Part shown: positions 30,010-37,820 of the stretch, piece after piece
Numbering within the stretch: position 1 is the stretch's first letter
Layout of the letters: each line of letters opens with the position of its first letter
NCBI GenBank assembly: GCA_028874995.1
Contig: JAPPGM010000111.1
Location: forward strand, 1 to 44,338
DNA length: 44,338 bases
Direction: 5' to 3'
From: Gemmatimonadota bacterium
GTDB lineage: Bacteria; Gemmatimonadota; Gemmatimonadetes; Longimicrobiales; Gaopeijiaceae
Position numbers and translations under genes: made by a program
The notes under the pieces: model-generated
The model's database searches: none
Seen by the model: only the letters and a program-made list of their open reading frames with translations
Told to the model about the DNA's origin: nothing

Positions 30010-31509
30010 TCACCCCCACCTCACCATCCCCGCCGCCCGCAGCAACGCCCGCGCCTTGTTCATCGTCTCCTCGAACTCGGCCTCGGGATCAGAATCCGCC
30101 ACCACCCCCGCCCCCGCCTGCACGTGCGCCCGGCCGCCCCGCACCACCATCGTGCGGATGGCGATCGCAGTATCCATCTGGGCACCCCCCCATCCGATGT
30201 GCCCCACCGCGCCCGCGTACGGCCCCCGCGCGGTGGGCTCCAGTTCGTCGATGATCTCCATGGCGCGCACCTTCGGAGCTCCCGACACCGTTCCCGCGGG
30301 GAAGCACGCCCCCAGCACGTCCAGCGCGGAAAGCCCCGCCCGCGCCTTGCCCTCGACCTGGCTGCACAGGTGCATGACATGGGAGTACCGTTCCACGGCC
30401 ATGAGCTCGGGAACGGTGACGCTCCCGTACTCCGACACGCGCCCCACGTCGTTGCGACCCAGATCCACCAGCATGCGGTGCTCGGCAAGCTCCTTCTCGT
30501 CACTGGCGAGTTCCCGCGCCAGCTCCCGGTCTTCGGCGGGGGTGCGTCCCCTCCTGCGCGTCGCCGCGATTGGCCGCACCGTCACCACCCCGTCCTCGAG
30601 ACGCACCAGGACCTCCGGCGACGACCCCACGATGCTCAGGCCGTCAAGTTCGAAGAAGTACATGTACGGCGACGGGTTGATGGTTCGTAGCGCCCGGTAG
30701 AGATCGAAGGGAGGATGCTCGAAACGGGTCGTGAGCCGCTGGCTGAGCACGACCTGGAAGGCGTCGCCCGCCGCGATGTATTCCTGAATCCGGCGTACCC
30801 CGGCAACGAAGTCGCCGCGCTCGAAGTTGCTGTCGCATGCGATGTCGGCCGTGGCCGGGCCGAGTTCCAGCGACAGCGGGGCGGGAGCACGGGCGGTATG
30901 GAGCTTCTCCACAACTCCCTCCAGGCGTTCCACCGCCTCCCTGTAGAGAACCTTGAGCGCGTCGGGGTCGGTGGTGTCGCCGGTCTCCACCGTGGTGATC
31001 GCCTTGGCCCGGCCGTGCAGATTGTCCACCGCGATCACAACGTCGGAGAACATGACCATCGCCGTCGGCAGGTTCTGGTCGTCGGGCGGCCCCGGTCCCA
31101 GCCGCTCCAGGCGCCGCACGAAGTCGTAGCCGAAGTAGCCCACGGCGCCGCCCCAGAAGCGGGGAAGACGGGGGTCGGGGCGGGGATGCGCGTCCGTCAG
31201 ACGGGCGTGCAGGTCGGCCAGGGGATCTTCGGCTTCGCGCGGACGCCACCCCCGTTCCGCACTCCACACGGAGATCTCACTACCTTTCAGCATCCACGCT
31301 TCGCGCGGCCGACTTCCCAGGAAGCTGTAGCGAGCCCATTGTTCACCCCCCACGACGGATTCGAGAAGGAAGCCGAAGGTACCGTCGCGCAGCTTGTGAT
31401 ATGCGGTGACAGCCGTATCGGAGTCGAAGAGGAATTCGGACCAGACGGCAGTGCGGCAGCCCGGCGCGGCGTCTTCGAGGAAGGATTCGAAGGTGGGTTC
31501 GACGTTCAA
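30010..31509 (-). CDS. trpE: Anthranilate synthase component I
   Basis: A 499-residue chorismate-using enzyme, the first of tryptophan synthesis. The N-terminal domain has FLLESVVGGEQWARYSFLG, a typical trpE block that in studied enzymes is part of the tryptophan feedback site. The catalytic domain shows YFFELDGLSIVGSSPE, VTVRPIAATRRRGRT, DEKELAEHRMLVDLGRND, FPAGTVSGAPKVRAMEIIDELE and AGAGVVADSDPEAEFEET. The frame is open to 31650. The best start is TTG at 31509, giving NVEPTFESF, which aligns with the usual first residues; TTG 31575 is the alternative. No Shine-Dalgarno site supports either. No trpG or other trp genes are in the window. Confidence 0.9.
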   Translation of the reverse strand: MNVEPTFESFLEDAAPGCRTAVWSEFLFDSDTAVTAYHKLRDGTFGFLLESVVGGEQWARYSFLGSRPREAWMLKGSEISVWSAERGWRPREAEDPLADLHARLTDAHPRPDPRLPRFWGGAVGYFGYDFVRRLERLGPGPPDDQNLPTAMVMFSDVVIAVDNLHGRAKAITTVETGDTTDPDALKVLYREAVERLEGVVEKLHTARAPAPLSLELGPATADIACDSNFERGDFVAGVRRIQEYIAAGDAFQVVLSQRLTTRFEHPPFDLYRALRTINPSPYMYFFELDGLSIVGSSPEVLVRLEDGVVTVRPIAATRRRGRTPAEDRELARELASDEKELAEHRMLVDLGRNDVGRVSEYGSVTVPELMAVERYSHVMHLCSQVEGKARAGLSALDVLGACFPAGTVSGAPKVRAMEIIDELEPTARGPYAGAVGHIGWGGAQMDTAIAIRTMVVRGGRAHVQAGAGVVADSDPEAEFEETMNKARALLRAAGMVRWG

Positions 31510-31591
31510 ATGACGGAAGGGGAGGTCCGGTTGAGGGAGACCGGATACCTTTCCAGGATTCGAGAAGAAAGTCAACGATCGAGAGGTGCCG

Positions 31592-33994
31592 ATGCGCCCC
31601 CGAAAAAACACCCCCCGGAGCACACCCGCTCCCCGGAGCACCCCGGACAACTCGCCGCCGTACGTGTGGGCGGCAGCCGTGGCCGTTGCCGTGGGTCTGC
31701 TCTACGCCGTCACCCTCGCGCCGACCACCGCGTTCTGGGACACCAGCGAGTACATCGCCACCGCACACATCCTGGGCATCCCCCACCCCCCCGGGAACCC
31801 CCTCTTCATCATCCTGGCCCGCACCTGGGACATCCTGCTGGGGGTCTTCGGGCTCTCCACGGCGGTGAAGATCAACCTGTTCTCCGCTCTGATGGGCGCG
31901 CTGGCCCACGGTCTCTGGTTCCTGGTGGTTCACCACATCCTCAGACACTTCTCCGACGACCGCACATTCCGACTCGTCGGCGCATGCGCCGCCGTGCTGG
32001 TCAGCGCCACCGCCTTTACGGTCTGGAACCAGTCGAATGTGAACGAGAAGGTCTACACGGTGTCCCTCCTCACGATCGCCCTGCTGTCGTGGCTCGCCTT
32101 CCGCTGGCAGGAGCGCATCGGCAAGGCCGGCGACGACAACCTCCTCGTCCTCATGGCCTTCGTGCTGGCCCTCTCGGTGGGGAACCACCTCATGGCCTTC
32201 CTGGCGGCTCCGGCGCTCCTCCTCTTCGTCCTCCTCGTGCGGCCCCGCTGCCTCCTCAACCCCCGCCTCTACCTCTACGGCGTACCCGCCGTCGTACTCG
32301 GCCTTTCCGTCCATCTCTTCCTGCCCATCCGCTCGGAGCTCGGGCCCATCATCAACGAAGCCCAGCCGACCTGCGAGAACATCGGCGCGGCGGTGGTGAG
32401 CGTTGTCACCTACGGCAACGCCGGATGCGAGGATCTGTCGGACGCGCTGGCGCGGAAGCAGTACGACAAGCCCCCGCTCACCAATCGGCAGGCGCCCCTC
32501 GTCTCCCAGGCCGGCAACTGGCTGCAGTACTTCGACTGGCAGTGGGCCCGGTCACTCTCTCGGACCGACCAGACCTTCGGCCGGGCACGGATCCCCATCA
32601 CGGCGCTCTTCATCGGCCTGGGCATCTTCGGGATCCTGGAGCACTACCGCCGGGACCGGGCCAGCTGGGTGTACATGATCTCGCTCTTCGGTGTCCTGTC
32701 CGCCGGCCTCGTCTACTATCTGAACTTCAAGTACGGGTATTCGATGCCCCTTCCCGAGGGAGACGAGCTCCGGCAGGCCATGGAGGCCGCGAACGCGCGA
32801 ACCTCCCGTGATCTCGCCGAGGTGCGCGAACGCGACTACTTCTTCGTCGTGGGCTTCTCGGTGTGGGGCCTCATGGCCGGCATCGGGATTGCGACCCTCT
32901 GGGACCGGGTCACGCGCATGTCCGGACGCTCGTTCGCCGCCACCTCACCCGTGCTCGGACTGGCTCTCATCCCCCTGGTGCTCAACTTCGGCTGGGCAAG
33001 CCGGGCGGGAGACCATGCGGCGCGCGACTGGGCGCACAACCTCCTCATGAGCGTCGAGCCGTACGGGGTGATCTTCACCAACGGCGACAACGACACCTTC
33101 CCGCTGTGGTACCTGCAGTATGTCGAGGGCATCCGCCCCGATGTCACCGTAGCGGTGACTTCGTACCTGAACACGCCCTGGTACGTGAAGCAGCTTCGCG
33201 ACCTCACCCGTCCCTGCCAGCCCGGCCAGGACCCCACCGCGGACCCCACTCTGATCCTGTGCCAGCATCCGTACACGGCAGAGAACACGGACGCCATGTA
33301 CACCCACGACCCCGCCGAGGCCGAGGCCGCCGGCAAGGTGCCGGTCCAGCTGGCCGAACCGGTGCGCGTCCCGTCACGGGGGATGTTCCGTGACGACTTG
33401 AGCGACGCCACCATCGAGCGCTATGCCGGCAGCTACCTGCAGCTGCGCGAAGCACGAGCCTACACGCTGGGCCCGCTCACGGCGAGAGTGGCGGGCGGTC
33501 AGGTGCTCTACCCGTGGCACCAGTTCGCTCTGGCCGCGATCGCGAACTCGCTCGGTGACCGGCCGGTGTACTTCGCGTCCGCCGTCACCCCGGCGGCCAC
33601 CTTCGACATCATGGGTTACCTGGTTCGACAGGGTCTCGCCTTCCGGCTCGTGCCGGGCAACCCTGCGGAACTCGCCCCGGGCGTCACACCTAACCAGGAC
33701 ACCGCGCAAACCGCCGTCGTGCTCGGCGCCTGGCTGGACATCGAACGCACCAAGCGGCTTGCCGACAGCGTATTCGTGGACCACTCCGGGATTCCGCACG
33801 ACTGGGACTACTGGCCGGACCGGTCAACCCGGGGCATCCCAAGGTACTATTCGTGGGTGTACGAATCGCTATGGCAGGATCCGGCACTCCGCGACGATCC
33901 GGAGCGCCGGGCCGAAGTCGAGGCTCTCCGGAGGGCCTGGGAAGACCTCGCGAATTCGCTGGAGCTACGTCAACCAGACAGCCCCGAGCCCTGA
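31592..33994 (+). CDS. DUF2723 polytopic membrane protein (GT-C-like, O-mannosyltransferase-type)
   Basis: An 800-residue membrane protein. The diagnostic motif FWDTSEYIATAHILGIPHPPGNPLF spans residues 48-72 (split here: D50, E53, HPPGNP at 65-70); the acidic pair after helix 1 is the catalytic signature of GT-C glycosyltransferases. About ten helices follow to residue ~460. The soluble C-terminal half contains IFTNGDNDTFPLWYLQYVEGIRPDV, a DUF2723 mark, and TPWYVKQLRD. It probably moves a sugar from a lipid carrier to a protein or glycan outside the membrane; the acceptor is unknown. The ATG at 31592 has GAGAGG five nt upstream. Its last 30 bp overlap the convergent Rad50-like gene. Confidence 0.85.
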   Translation: MRPRKNTPRSTPAPRSTPDNSPPYVWAAAVAVAVGLLYAVTLAPTTAFWDTSEYIATAHILGIPHPPGNPLFIILARTWDILLGVFGLSTAVKINLFSALMGALAHGLWFLVVHHILRHFSDDRTFRLVGACAAVLVSATAFTVWNQSNVNEKVYTVSLLTIALLSWLAFRWQERIGKAGDDNLLVLMAFVLALSVGNHLMAFLAAPALLLFVLLVRPRCLLNPRLYLYGVPAVVLGLSVHLFLPIRSELGPIINEAQPTCENIGAAVVSVVTYGNAGCEDLSDALARKQYDKPPLTNRQAPLVSQAGNWLQYFDWQWARSLSRTDQTFGRARIPITALFIGLGIFGILEHYRRDRASWVYMISLFGVLSAGLVYYLNFKYGYSMPLPEGDELRQAMEAANARTSRDLAEVRERDYFFVVGFSVWGLMAGIGIATLWDRVTRMSGRSFAATSPVLGLALIPLVLNFGWASRAGDHAARDWAHNLLMSVEPYGVIFTNGDNDTFPLWYLQYVEGIRPDVTVAVTSYLNTPWYVKQLRDLTRPCQPGQDPTADPTLILCQHPYTAENTDAMYTHDPAEAEAAGKVPVQLAEPVRVPSRGMFRDDLSDATIERYAGSYLQLREARAYTLGPLTARVAGGQVLYPWHQFALAAIANSLGDRPVYFASAVTPAATFDIMGYLVRQGLAFRLVPGNPAELAPGVTPNQDTAQTAVVLGAWLDIERTKRLADSVFVDHSGIPHDWDYWPDRSTRGIPRYYSWVYESLWQDPALRDDPERRAEVEALRRAWEDLANSLELRQPDSPEP

Positions 33995-35443
33995 CCTCTG
34001 CCGCAGAATGCGGTCCCCGTCTCCCGTTCCCCCCGCCCGGTAGAGGAAGTCGAAATACTCGGGCACCGCGGCCACCACCTGCGGTGCAGCGCACACCAGC
34101 ACCAGCGGAATGCGCCGCGACAGACGCGCCAGAGCCGCCACCGCGCGGGAGCGGTCCTGCGGGTGCAGGCGTTCCAGGCCCTCGGGGAAGACGATCGACT
34201 CCAGCTTCGCCCCCGCGCCCGTCGCCAGCTCCAACAGCACAATCCGCGCGGCCATCTCGAGCACGGCGACATCCGCCCCACCCCTCCCCCCACCCCCGGC
34301 CCACGCCGCGAAGATTTCTGGAAACGAACCCAACAACCGCCCCCCGGTGAGTGCCACCACCTCGCCGTGAATCCTCGCCCGCACGCGGCGCCGGGTCTCG
34401 GACACCAGACGCGCCCTCCCCTCCTCCCCCGCGGCACCGCCTTCCGCGCGGCCCCCCACCCCACCCCCCCGCCGTCCACGCAACCGCGCCGCCAACTCCA
34501 ACAGGTCATCGAGGCGACGAGCAGCCGCCTCCAACCCCACCACCTGCGCCTTGCACCGGGCAAGCTCCTCCGCAAGACCATCGACCTCCGCCGCCAGCGC
34601 GACCGCCCGTCGCTCCGCCGCCTGCAGGTCGTCCGGCTTGCCTTCGAGCTGGTCCCGGCGGCGGCGCCACCACCGTCCGTCCTGCACCACCGACTCCCAT
34701 TCCTCCCTGAGGACCTCCCGCACCGGCCCCGCAAGATCTCCAAGCTCCCTGCCGCACCTGCCGCACGGGCCGTCCTCCCCCCCCTCGTCCATGCTTTTGA
34801 GCTTCCCGCGCAGTTCCCGCTCCCGGTCACGGTACAGCAGGAGCCGCGTCTCGGCGTCCTGGCGCTCCCGCACCCACGCCATCGTTCCGGCTTCCGCGTC
34901 GCCACGGGCGATCGCCGCCTCCTCGCGCGCCTCGCGCAACCGCGCCTTCAGTCCCTCCACCTCCTCCTGAGACTTCGTCAGACGGTCCACCTCGTTTCGG
35001 GCGTCCCTCGCCAGGCGAGCCACCCGGGCGCCCGGCAGATCGTAGGCGGAACCCCCCTCTGCCACACCACTCCCTCCCCCACGCACCTCCCCCGCTCCCG
35101 CCGGACCCAGCAGCAGCGCCCCCCCCGCCGCCAGCCACGTTCTCGCCGCCCCGCCACCGAACCAGATCGCCGCGTACTCCTCCCGCCGCAGCACGTGCGC
35201 TTCGAGCACCGGTTCGAGCTGCGCCTCGAAGGCGTCGGTCCCCACGATAACCGGGCCGTCCGTCCCCTCCACCACCGGCCCCGGCGCACTGCGACGACCC
35301 CGGCTCGCAAAGGCCGTGCGCAGGCCCTCAAGAAACTCGCCCCACACCGGATCGCCCTCGGACACGAAACCCACCAATCCCCGCGAATCTCTCAGATCCA
35401 GGACGGGACCTCGCGACCCCGCCTGCAGCGACGCGAGCCTCAT
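33965..35443 (-). CDS. Rad50/SbcC-like coiled-coil protein with CxxC hook but degenerate ATPase motifs
   Basis: A 492-residue protein laid out like a small Rad50/SbcC. An N-terminal globular part (1-135) leads into a coiled coil at ~140-220. A zinc-hook-like C227-GR-C230 sits at the turn, a returning coil runs at ~240-325, and a C-terminal globular part (~345-492) closes it. The ATPase sites look lost. Where Walker A should follow GLVGF the sequence is VSEGDPVWGEFLEGL, with no GxxGxGK[ST]. The Walker B region reads ESIVFPEGLERLHPQDR, so the aspartate is proline. No LSGG signature is seen. Its ATG overlaps the stop of the Mre11-like gene (ATGA). Homology is inferred from layout, motif remnants and that partner. 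Confidence 0.62.
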   Translation of the reverse strand: MRLASLQAGSRGPVLDLRDSRGLVGFVSEGDPVWGEFLEGLRTAFASRGRRSAPGPVVEGTDGPVIVGTDAFEAQLEPVLEAHVLRREEYAAIWFGGGAARTWLAAGGALLLGPAGAGEVRGGGSGVAEGGSAYDLPGARVARLARDARNEVDRLTKSQEEVEGLKARLREAREEAAIARGDAEAGTMAWVRERQDAETRLLLYRDRERELRGKLKSMDEGGEDGPCGRCGRELGDLAGPVREVLREEWESVVQDGRWWRRRRDQLEGKPDDLQAAERRAVALAAEVDGLAEELARCKAQVVGLEAAARRLDDLLELAARLRGRRGGGVGGRAEGGAAGEEGRARLVSETRRRVRARIHGEVVALTGGRLLGSFPEIFAAWAGGGGRGGADVAVLEMAARIVLLELATGAGAKLESIVFPEGLERLHPQDRSRAVAALARLSRRIPLVLVCAAPQVVAAVPEYFDFLYRAGGTGDGDRILRQRSGLGAVWLT

Positions 35444-36486
35444 CGGCCGGCCCGCACCCCCACGCGCCCCCGCCCCCGCACCCCACCGCGCGCAGTCCTC
35501 GCGCGCACCCCCGGCACGTCACGCCGCGCCCCCTTCCCGCCCACCCCATGCGACGCACCCTGCCCGGGAAGCGCTTCCACCCGCAGCTCGGCAACCCTGC
35601 GCCGCACCCCGGCGAGCACCTCCCTGTCGAGCACGGCCAGATCGTCCGCGGCAAGTCCCCGAACCGGAATCCGCAGGAGCTTCCCGTCGATCCCGCCGGG
35701 CACCCCCGCCAGCGCCTCGCCCAACCGCCGCGCGACCGTCGCGGTGCCCCCTCCCGTGGCTTCGATGGGAGCCAGGCTCACCGCGGCCCGTGCCTCCACC
35801 GGCCAGAAGGTCACCTCGCCCGACTCCAGCTGAACGGTCACGAACCCCTTGTCGATCGCCGCCTCCTCCCACGGGTCGGTGCCGACCCGCTCCAGCGACC
35901 CGCAGTAGCAGACCCGCTCGGCCACCGCCGCATAGGCGTGGTTGGAGCCGAGCGCGACGTAGTCCCAACCCGCGAGCGCGATCGCGGGGGCGTGGGAGCG
36001 CCCTGACGCCAGCGCCGCGTGCGCCACCAGGACGTTCCACTCCGCCTCCGGATGGGGAGAGATGTCCACCGAGCGGGAGGCCATGACCGCGGGGTGGGGA
36101 AGGAGGGTGACGCCGAGCCGTCCGTCGTGCAGACGGAGTCGCCTGACCGTGGTCGTCGCCACCTCGACGCCGGGCAGCGCGCCGATCACCATCAGCGGCC
36201 CGTGCGCGCCCGCCTCCAAGGGAGTGTCGCGGGCTCCGGCGGATACGGCGACGACCACCCCGGGAAGACTGTCCCGCAACTTGCGGACCGACCTCGAGAA
36301 GGTGGCGATCGGCGACGCGGTGACCTCGGGGTGATCGAATACGTCACCGGCGATGACCAGCAGGTCGGGGGCCAGTTCCGCGATGCGGGCCAGCGCGTTC
36401 TCGAAGGCCCGCAGCACATCCGCCGCCCGTCCCGGCCCCGCCCCGGCGTAGCCCAGGTGCAGATCCGAGAGGTGGGCCACCCTCAT
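35440..36486 (-). CDS. Mre11/SbcD-like metallophosphoesterase with altered active-site motifs
   Basis: A 348-residue calcineurin-like protein of the SbcD/Mre11 nuclease type. Motif I is intact (HLSDLHLG, D8 and H10), as are motif II (GDVFDHPEVT, D48) and a histidine in NVLVAHAAL (H156). Motif III, normally GNHD, reads G84-A-R-D87, so the metal-binding Asn and the catalytic His are gone. Motif V, normally GHxH, reads G180-S-N-H183. I confirmed both in the DNA. The tail after ~320 is Gly/Arg-rich. The ATG at 36486 overlaps the upstream stop (TGATG), and its own stop overlaps the Rad50-like start. It may be a structural or DNA-binding partner with weak or no nuclease activity (inference). Confidence 0.75.
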   Translation of the reverse strand: MRVAHLSDLHLGYAGAGPGRAADVLRAFENALARIAELAPDLLVIAGDVFDHPEVTASPIATFSRSVRKLRDSLPGVVVAVSAGARDTPLEAGAHGPLMVIGALPGVEVATTTVRRLRLHDGRLGVTLLPHPAVMASRSVDISPHPEAEWNVLVAHAALASGRSHAPAIALAGWDYVALGSNHAYAAVAERVCYCGSLERVGTDPWEEAAIDKGFVTVQLESGEVTFWPVEARAAVSLAPIEATGGGTATVARRLGEALAGVPGGIDGKLLRIPVRGLAADDLAVLDREVLAGVRRRVAELRVEALPGQGASHGVGGKGARRDVPGVRARTARGGVRGRGRVGVRAGR

Positions 36487-37820
36487 CAGATGTCCCAGTG
36501 GCCGAGCGGCCCGCCGTCCCCGTGCAGCACTTCCAGCCCGGCGACGGGCCCCGGCGGCGATCCCCCCGCGTGGAGGCACCACACTTCGTCCCCACGGGGG
36601 CGCAGCCGCGGCGGTCCCACGAAGGTGGGCACCGCGGCTACGTACCGCGCCACCCGGAACCCCGCCGCGACCGTTGATTCGGCCACCGTCCGCGGCAGCT
36701 GGCTCCGCCGCCCTCGCACCCAGACCCTCTCCACCCCGGCCTCGCGCAGCGCGGCCTGCAAATCCCCGGCGGCCAGTCCCGCCCGGAGCCCGTCCCCCGC
36801 GGTCTCCCAATCCATCACCACCGTATGCCCCGGCACCTCCGGCACGGCGGACTCCACCAGCGACCCGGCGTCCCACTCGAACCCCTCGGTGGCCAGTGCT
36901 CCGAGGTCGGCATCCGGCTCATGCAGCCGCCACTCCCCCTCTCCCTCCCTCGCAAACCAGCTCCCGGCGCCCACGAACAGCACCGGAGCGCGCTCGTCCA
37001 GCGTACTCGCCACCCCCAGTCGCCAGTCTCCCGCGACGGGTGGATCGACCATACAGTCCCATTCACCGACCCAGAGGACCCTCACCTCGGACTCCGGCAC
37101 CGCGGTGTGCCACACCTCGAGGCGCAGCCCGGGACGGGTGGTTTCGCGCAACAGGACGCGGCGGCGCGGCACGCGGTCGAAAATCCACCCCTGGAAGCGG
37201 GCGCCCCCGGACGCGAACACGGCGGCTCCGAGAAACGCGGTTACCGCCAGCACAGGACGTCCCAGGAGCATGAACACCAGGGCCGCACCCGCCACGACCC
37301 CGGCCACGGCCCCGATCACGACCTGCCTTCGGGAACCCGATTCCAGGGACATGGCAAAGCTCCCGATACGCCCCCACACCCCACCCGCGAAGTACGCCGG
37401 CAGGGCACCCGTGACGGCCAGGCCCAGGCCCTGCGTGAGGGACCTGCCGGCAAAGCCGTCCAGCAGCTCCCACAATCCGGTGAACCCCGACCCGGCCAGG
37501 AGCGTCACGAGGAGGCCGACCCACCACCTCACCACCGTGCGAACGGCCTGATCGTCGTCCCCCGCCCTCCCCATCCATATCCCCGCGGCCAGTGACAACA
37601 GGGCGACGCCAATCAGAACCGCAGCCGCACGGACGAGACCCTCGCTGTCTTCGCCGAGCAGAGCGATGAGTTGTGAAATCTCGCGCTCGCTATTCAGGAT
37701 TCCCCGCGCCAGTCCCTGTGAATCGTAGAGCAACACGCCCGCGCCGGTCACGACCGCGGTGGCAACGGCGGCGCCGACCAGCAATGAAGGCACCCAGATC
37801 AACCTGCGCGCCCGACTCAC
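36486..37820 (-). CDS. Six-helix membrane protein with cytosolic Rossmann-like domain, unknown function
   Basis: A 444-residue protein. Helices lie at ~8-32, 64-84, 98-120, 128-147, 165-186 and 187-204. The soluble C-terminal half (~210-444) contains VRVLWVGEWDCMV and PVLFVGAGSWF followed ~10 residues later by LHEPDADLGALA. That spacing recalls a nucleotide-binding motif I and the acidic residue of motif II in spermidine synthase or methyltransferase folds, some of which are fused to membrane helices. The key GxGxG and proton acceptor are not clear, so I do not assign an enzyme. GTG at 37820 has AGGAGA five nt upstream. It is the first gene of the operon with the Mre11- and Rad50-like genes. 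Confidence 0.6.
   Translation of the reverse strand: MSRARRLIWVPSLLVGAAVATAVVTGAGVLLYDSQGLARGILNSEREISQLIALLGEDSEGLVRAAAVLIGVALLSLAAGIWMGRAGDDDQAVRTVVRWWVGLLVTLLAGSGFTGLWELLDGFAGRSLTQGLGLAVTGALPAYFAGGVWGRIGSFAMSLESGSRRQVVIGAVAGVVAGAALVFMLLGRPVLAVTAFLGAAVFASGGARFQGWIFDRVPRRRVLLRETTRPGLRLEVWHTAVPESEVRVLWVGEWDCMVDPPVAGDWRLGVASTLDERAPVLFVGAGSWFAREGEGEWRLHEPDADLGALATEGFEWDAGSLVESAVPEVPGHTVVMDWETAGDGLRAGLAAGDLQAALREAGVERVWVRGRRSQLPRTVAESTVAAGFRVARYVAAVPTFVGPPRLRPRGDEVWCLHAGGSPPGPVAGLEVLHGDGGPLGHWDI

Follow-up and report, generated by a model that had tools for sequence, protein, structure and literature searches.

The 44,338-nucleotide window analysed here (contig JAPPGM010000111.1 of assembly GCA_028874995.1, positions 1 to 44,338) comes from a Gemmatimonadota bacterium of the order Longimicrobiales, family Gaopeijiaceae. 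Its genome measures 4.5 Mb in 191 contigs, of which the window is contig 46, and is about 97% complete. On the minus strand of the window there are three genes whose stop and start codons overlap. The first, MEM (36486..37820), starts with GTG and encodes a membrane protein of 444 amino acids which, judging from hydropathy and alignment, has N-terminal hydrophobic segments and an eroded spermidine-synthase-like C-terminal domain. It overlaps with MRE (35440..36486) in the sequence TGATG (36484..36488). MRE encodes an Mre11/SbcD-like protein of 348 amino acids without the second metal site and the catalytic histidine. MRE in turn overlaps with RAD (33965..35443) in ATGA (35440..35443), and RAD encodes a Rad50/SbcC-like protein of 492 amino acids with a CxxC hook, a shortened coiled coil and no ATPase motifs. 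An earlier note on this DNA, made from its letters alone, had described the three genes, their overlaps and the altered motifs of both proteins; the coordinates and every residue that it quoted are correct. In fold and descent the pair is Mre11-Rad50, and the motifs of the activities that define such a complex are gone. It is a derived branch in which the catalytic motifs have disappeared and which selection maintains.

The window MRE matches PF00149 (E 7e-8) and scores 44.5 bits against the SbcD model TIGR00619, below the cut-off of 77.65. It keeps motifs I and II (DLH and GDVFD). GNHD is replaced by G84-A-R-D87 (36226..36237, minus strand), so that the asparagine of metal 2 and the catalytic histidine are lost and an arginine stands at the histidine position. 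GHxH is replaced by G180-S-N-H183 (35938..35949, minus strand), with the first histidine lost and the last one kept. In the numbering of P. furiosus Mre11, which we checked on an alignment to PDB 1ii7 and use for individual ligands, N84, H85 and H206 are lost, leaving the window protein without a complete two-metal active site and catalytic histidine (GNHD plus GHxH). Among 79 degenerate MRE sequences the ligands of metal 1 are kept almost throughout (D8 in 78, H10 in 78, D49 in 79 and H208 in 77). Ligands of metal 2 are kept in none (N84), 6 (H206) and 50 (H173) of them, and the catalytic H85 is arginine in 77. The loss is thus selective for one metal site, and neutral decay would not be expected to spare the other so precisely.

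Such a pattern might mean that MRE is still an enzyme, with a new chemistry. The single-metal site with an arginine for His 85 would then make a different phosphoesterase, and RAD would serve as its structural subunit. The preservation of the four metal 1 ligands in 77 to 79 of the 79 sequences is in agreement with this suggestion, as are the strong conservation of the replacement arginine itself and the omega value of MRE, which in each of the four clades compared is lower than those of MEM and RAD, though narrowly in one. However, two-metal phosphoesterases of the same fold depend on the bridging asparagine, H206 and H173; the asparagine is gone from 79 of 79 sequences, H206 from nearly all and H173 from about a third. 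The most degenerate member (genome G023, locus L193) has lost ligands of metal 1 too. We consider a new enzymatic activity unlikely.

On the side of RAD, the window protein has no GxxxxGK[ST]. Its residues 27-34, VSEGDPVW (35342..35365, minus strand), align with GPNGAGKS, the Walker A motif of intact orthologues. Residues S416-I-V-F-P-E421 (34181..34198, minus strand) align with the Walker B motif LLILDE of the same orthologues, with FPE where Walker B would stand, and there is no SGGE signature. Walker A was searched for in 75 degenerate RAD loci and was found in none of them. Compared with intact orthologues, the Q-loop region is missing and the H-loop is changed, and the signature and the Walker B aspartate are changed in every aligned sequence. 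A D-loop-like FDRL is left in RAD of other genera, not in the window's genus. Since every ATP-binding motif is lost, ATP use by RAD seems unlikely. What remains is the hook. The motif C227-G-R-C230 (34754..34765, minus strand) lies in the most conserved part of the protein, the hook region W190-E277 (34613..34876, minus strand). Mean column conservation is 0.71 across residues 187-283, as against 0.39-0.52 elsewhere, and nearly all residues that are conserved at 95% or more fall within the hook region. Both cysteines are invariant in the 57 aligned RAD sequences, and the pair occurs in 75 of 75 degenerate loci, which were themselves found by hook-region patterns. The coiled-coil arms are much shorter than in intact orthologues: the whole protein has 492 amino acids instead of about 810, and the hook is at residue 227 instead of about 405.

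The earlier note had allowed that structure prediction might place this 492-residue protein in an unrelated fold. The model of the window RAD, built from 57 sequences (mean predicted local distance difference test score, pLDDT, 89.4; predicted template modelling score, pTM, 0.61), has its best structural match in the head of P. furiosus Rad50 (3qkt; Z 15.4 over 256 residues, 4.7 Å). The predicted fold is a head of the SMC/Rad50 type with a coiled coil between its two lobes, and the hook cysteines C227 and C230, putative zinc ligands at the apex of the coiled coil, lie between the two long helices of the model. Heads of SMC proteins score almost as high as the Rad50 head. However, a profile built from degenerate RAD alone matches only Rad50 chains in the PDB, with a best E of 3e-7; because of this search, and of descent, we favour Rad50 over SMC. 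An unrelated fold is ruled out by the model together with the profile search. The resemblances are not due to chance either, as the same genes recur in order throughout the family and the RAD profile picks out Rad50 alone in the PDB.

In 41 of 72 degenerate loci MRE and RAD form one open frame, and these include two genomes close to the window's (G003 and G014). It is this fusion that supports, indirectly, the idea that MRE and RAD may work as a complex. One natural fusion, L176 (835 amino acids; L100, on the same contig), gave a model with pLDDT 86.8 and pTM 0.84. Its Mre11 part matches MjMre11 (4tug) with Z 27.4 over 276 residues at 3.1 Å, and the list of structural matches barely covers its RAD part. 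The window MRE is 41% identical to the MRE part of this protein, and the predicted fold with a phosphoesterase and a capping domain is taken from the L176 model.

How old is this state? Of 59 related genomes searched, 46 have an MRE match and 43 a RAD match. Across the window's own family, f1, the gene order is kept as HD, sigma, rsgA, MEM, MRE and RAD, followed by a convergent gene for a TMEM260-like membrane protein (PF11028; 31586-33994 on the plus strand of the window) and by trpE, encoding anthranilate synthase component I (30010-31650, minus strand). The last two are conserved neighbours of the operon and serve as positional markers. Many of the MRE-RAD pairs in the sister families, f2 and f3, adjoin the same TMEM260-like gene or trpE. 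There the Rad50-like protein has about 810 amino acids and carries GPNGAGKS, SGGEE and LILDEVFGSLD, and the Mre11-like protein carries GNHD and GHYH. Given this shared position, the degenerate pair and the intact Mre11-Rad50 pair are positional orthologues, and the degenerate one descends from an intact one. The earlier note had held that homologues with intact motifs would mean local decay. Such homologues do exist, but they are located in sister families at the orthologous place, so that the change is an old, inherited and family-wide one instead.

The degenerate MRE proteins form a single clade. In a maximum-likelihood tree of 99 MRE rows, all 78 degenerate rows fall on one side of a branch (support 97/83), and 19 rows of the intact group lie on another branch (support 94/96). 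A scan of 84,980 species genomes with two hook-region patterns, by which degenerate forms without the hook region would be missed, yielded 79 loci, of which 75 are degenerate and 4 are intact. All loci but one are labelled Gemmatimonadota, and many of the relatives are labelled Longimicrobiales. The exception is L179, the sole degenerate locus labelled Gammaproteobacteria; its sequence groups inside the Gemmatimonadota clade, so that the bin was probably misassigned. When the search was widened to 154 genomes of the order, 122 of them had relatives. One sister-family genome, G054 (L089, 2502-8153), has intact Rad50 ATPase motifs next to an MRE with GDRDTPR and GHHP. Its MRE sits on a long branch among intact rows, and for this reason we judge it to be, apparently, an independent and partial change on the Mre11 side only. 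It shows that the motifs of MRE can go even where those of RAD stay, and it need not be a step toward the degenerate clade.

The altered pair is under strong purifying selection. With a codon model applied to four clades of the window's genus, omega was 0.079-0.100 for MRE, 0.103-0.137 for RAD and 0.053-0.096 for the RAD hook. The corresponding values for MEM are 0.087-0.151, for the RsgA control 0.079-0.090 and for the TMEM260-like gene 0.032-0.092. Two of the four clades are highly diverged (tree lengths above 2), so that values are rough there; all clades agree. The earlier note had proposed to test whether the altered residues and the CxxC are under selection; the pair as a whole is, and the hook is the best-conserved part of RAD. 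One may nevertheless imagine slow decay, with the genes as non-functional relics awaiting loss. Active-site residues are lost on both sides, parts have been lost sporadically in three genomes (G008, G010 and G032), and the system is absent from some genera. Against such decay, omega of 0.08-0.14 is like that of the neighbouring RsgA, the frames are open across dozens of species, one metal site and the hook are selectively retained, and there was one old origin. This explanation is scarcely credible, and the omega values, together with conservation throughout the family, rule out a local decay or pseudogene.

The third gene requires a separate discussion. A profile of the MEM family matches orthologues beside intact pairs down to E 9e-48, and MEM relatives are found upstream in 11 of 19 loci of the intact group, several others being cut by the end of the contig. 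These matches, obtained with a more sensitive profile, rule out the idea that MEM was a newcomer arriving with the degeneration. Three sister-family orthologues, tested against the model for fused MFS/spermidine synthases (NF037959), score 98-114 bits over the synthase domain, where the cut-off is 40. The window MEM does not match NF037959, nothing in Pfam or NCBIfam exceeds its cut-off, and the MEM profile has no match among PDB sequences. In MEM proteins of degenerate loci the synthase motifs are worn: some genera keep part of them, the window's genus has lost most, and others, for example L099 and L101, lack the synthase domain altogether. Hence MEM is an ancestral gene shared by both groups, with its enzyme domain eroded here. 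Its distance to MRE differs between the groups. The interval from the MEM stop to the MRE start lies between -1 and +11 bases in 57 of 58 degenerate loci and is a one-base overlap in 42 of the 58; in nine intact loci the gap is 166-2671 bases. This abutment is the main, though indirect, ground for suggesting that the complex may have a link to the membrane.

MEM could also be the key to the function. The three proteins might then form a membrane complex unrelated to DNA which serves an envelope- or polyamine-related function of MEM, the Mre11-Rad50 part being a regulator or a ruler. In favour of this, the ancestor of both groups already had MEM, which in intact loci looks like a fused MFS/spermidine synthase, abuts MRE only in degenerate loci, and outlives the loss of MRE-RAD in G008. 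However, the window's genus has an eroded synthase half and other genera have none, so that little enzymatic function would be left to regulate, and the neighbourhood of MEM and the pair in intact loci is loose. We find this role improbable.

Another potential role concerns canonical SbcCD. The earlier note had proposed to look for a canonical sbcCD pair elsewhere in the genome, and there is one, on contig 161. The degenerate pair is not a duplicate of it, given that intact orthologues of the pair occupy the corresponding place on the chromosome. SbcD above the cut-off was found in 23 of 23 genomes of the same genus, and these findings would fit a regulator that forms mixed hook dimers with SbcC or competes for DNA ends. 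Elsewhere in the family, no SbcD passes the cut-off in those sampled genera that have the degenerate pair. For this reason regulation of SbcCD cannot be a general role, and the pair is not simply an accessory of SbcCD. In addition, the intact orthologue is itself a separate system of the Rad50 type. Such regulation is therefore very unlikely.

What might the pair do, if it is neither a nuclease nor a relic? We think it probable that a complex derived from Mre11-Rad50 gave up catalysis and was retained as a non-catalytic scaffold dimerised through its hook. The motifs argue against ATP-dependent nuclease activity. RAD protomers would pair through the Cys2 hook, as we infer from the stable pairing of Rad50 hooks (PMC6969161). 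The one remaining metal site of MRE and its new arginine may bind, and not cut, a phosphate-bearing ligand; the simplest candidate would be DNA, either an end or a branched form. Through co-translation with MEM the complex could be placed at the membrane, and it would act there as an ATP-independent tether or adaptor and not as a nuclease. In this scheme we are least sure of the ligand and of the placement at the membrane. Taken in full, the scheme describes a family-wide, vertically inherited pseudo-Mre11-Rad50 which lost its catalytic motifs in one lineage, along with those of the MEM synthase, and became a hook-dimerised, single-metal tether that works without ATP and keeps DNA or another phosphate ligand at the membrane; in that complete form it is a tentative proposal that may well be wrong. 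The earlier note had likewise thought of a repurposed, ATP-independent complex. That the pair is retained and changed, and not decaying, follows from the single clade, omega, gene order and hook; of ATP independence we can say only that ATP use is unlikely.

Several observations weigh against the scaffold. In the window's genus the tail of MRE is rich in glycine and arginine and apparently lacks the Rad50-binding helices that intact MRE has, so that the contact between MRE and RAD is uncertain there; helices like these C-terminal ones persist in other genera and in the fused L176 model. The assignment of residues to metal 1 and metal 2 is one that we presume from established knowledge of Mre11. 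Conservation cannot tell DNA from another ligand. The system is dispensable, as some genomes of the family, and some genera, are without it. In genome G008 (L119, 2422-6583) MRE and RAD are missing, and a full MEM stands directly before the TMEM260-like gene. Genome G032 (L105, 4548-5318) has a frame of 257 amino acids with little beyond the hook region; MEM and MRE were not found in this genome, which is only 81% complete.

If the scaffold reading is correct, the locus may be informative about Mre11-Rad50 in general. The complex is usually explained by ATP-gated nuclease action, and it is difficult to study the roles of the hook and of tethering apart from catalysis. In this lineage evolution seems to have separated them, since the hook and one metal site are selected and the ATPase and nuclease motifs are gone. 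Three adjoining genes lost catalytic motifs in the same lineage and yet stayed together. Owing to its naturally fused, single-chain forms the complex is easy to study.

We know other systems with which the pair can be compared. With archaeal-type Mre11-Rad50 and with SbcCD it shares both folds, the gene order, the coiled coil with its CxxC hook and the metal 1 ligands of Mre11. It differs from them in having no Walker A, Q-loop, signature, Walker B aspartate, H-loop, N84, H85 and H206, in its much shorter coiled coil and in the membrane-protein gene that abuts it. The intact orthologues of the sister families score best against Rad50 models of the archaeal type. Mimivirus R555 and its relatives (PMC3175470) have an Mre11 part followed by a Rad50 part in a single chain, as do the fused degenerate loci. 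According to the portions of that paper considered here, R555 has Walker A, Walker B and D-loop motifs; the Gemmatimonadota fusions have neither of the two Walker motifs and have been passed on at a single chromosomal site. The same portions mention one missing P-loop segment in two cases of fusion, in Anaerostipes and in a Bacillus phage, and describe no paired loss of P-loop and nuclease site. RloC, a zinc-hook, Rad50-like ABC tRNase (PMC2610378), is likewise a protein of this kind given a different use. Going by its abstract and by general knowledge, RloC, unlike RAD, keeps its ABC ATPase, has a tRNase part and has no Mre11 partner. We found no account of a degenerate Mre11-Rad50, or of SbcCD in Gemmatimonadota, in the open-access papers that were searched.

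A few minor observations can be added. The most degenerate member mentioned above, G023 (L102 and L193), lies on a long branch; D8 and H10 are the metal 1 ligands replaced in it, and an in-frame TAG is reported inside its RAD match. Genome G010 (L120, 5148-6059), of the same genus as G008, is also without MRE and RAD, and a shorter MEM-like frame is left there. Contig 22 of the window's own genome (L107, 3746-7548) has a third Mre11-like locus, a phosphoesterase and AAA_27 pair that resembles YhaO/YhaN. In genome G031 two contigs (L096 and L097) each carry MEM-MRE, possibly as two copies or as strain variation.

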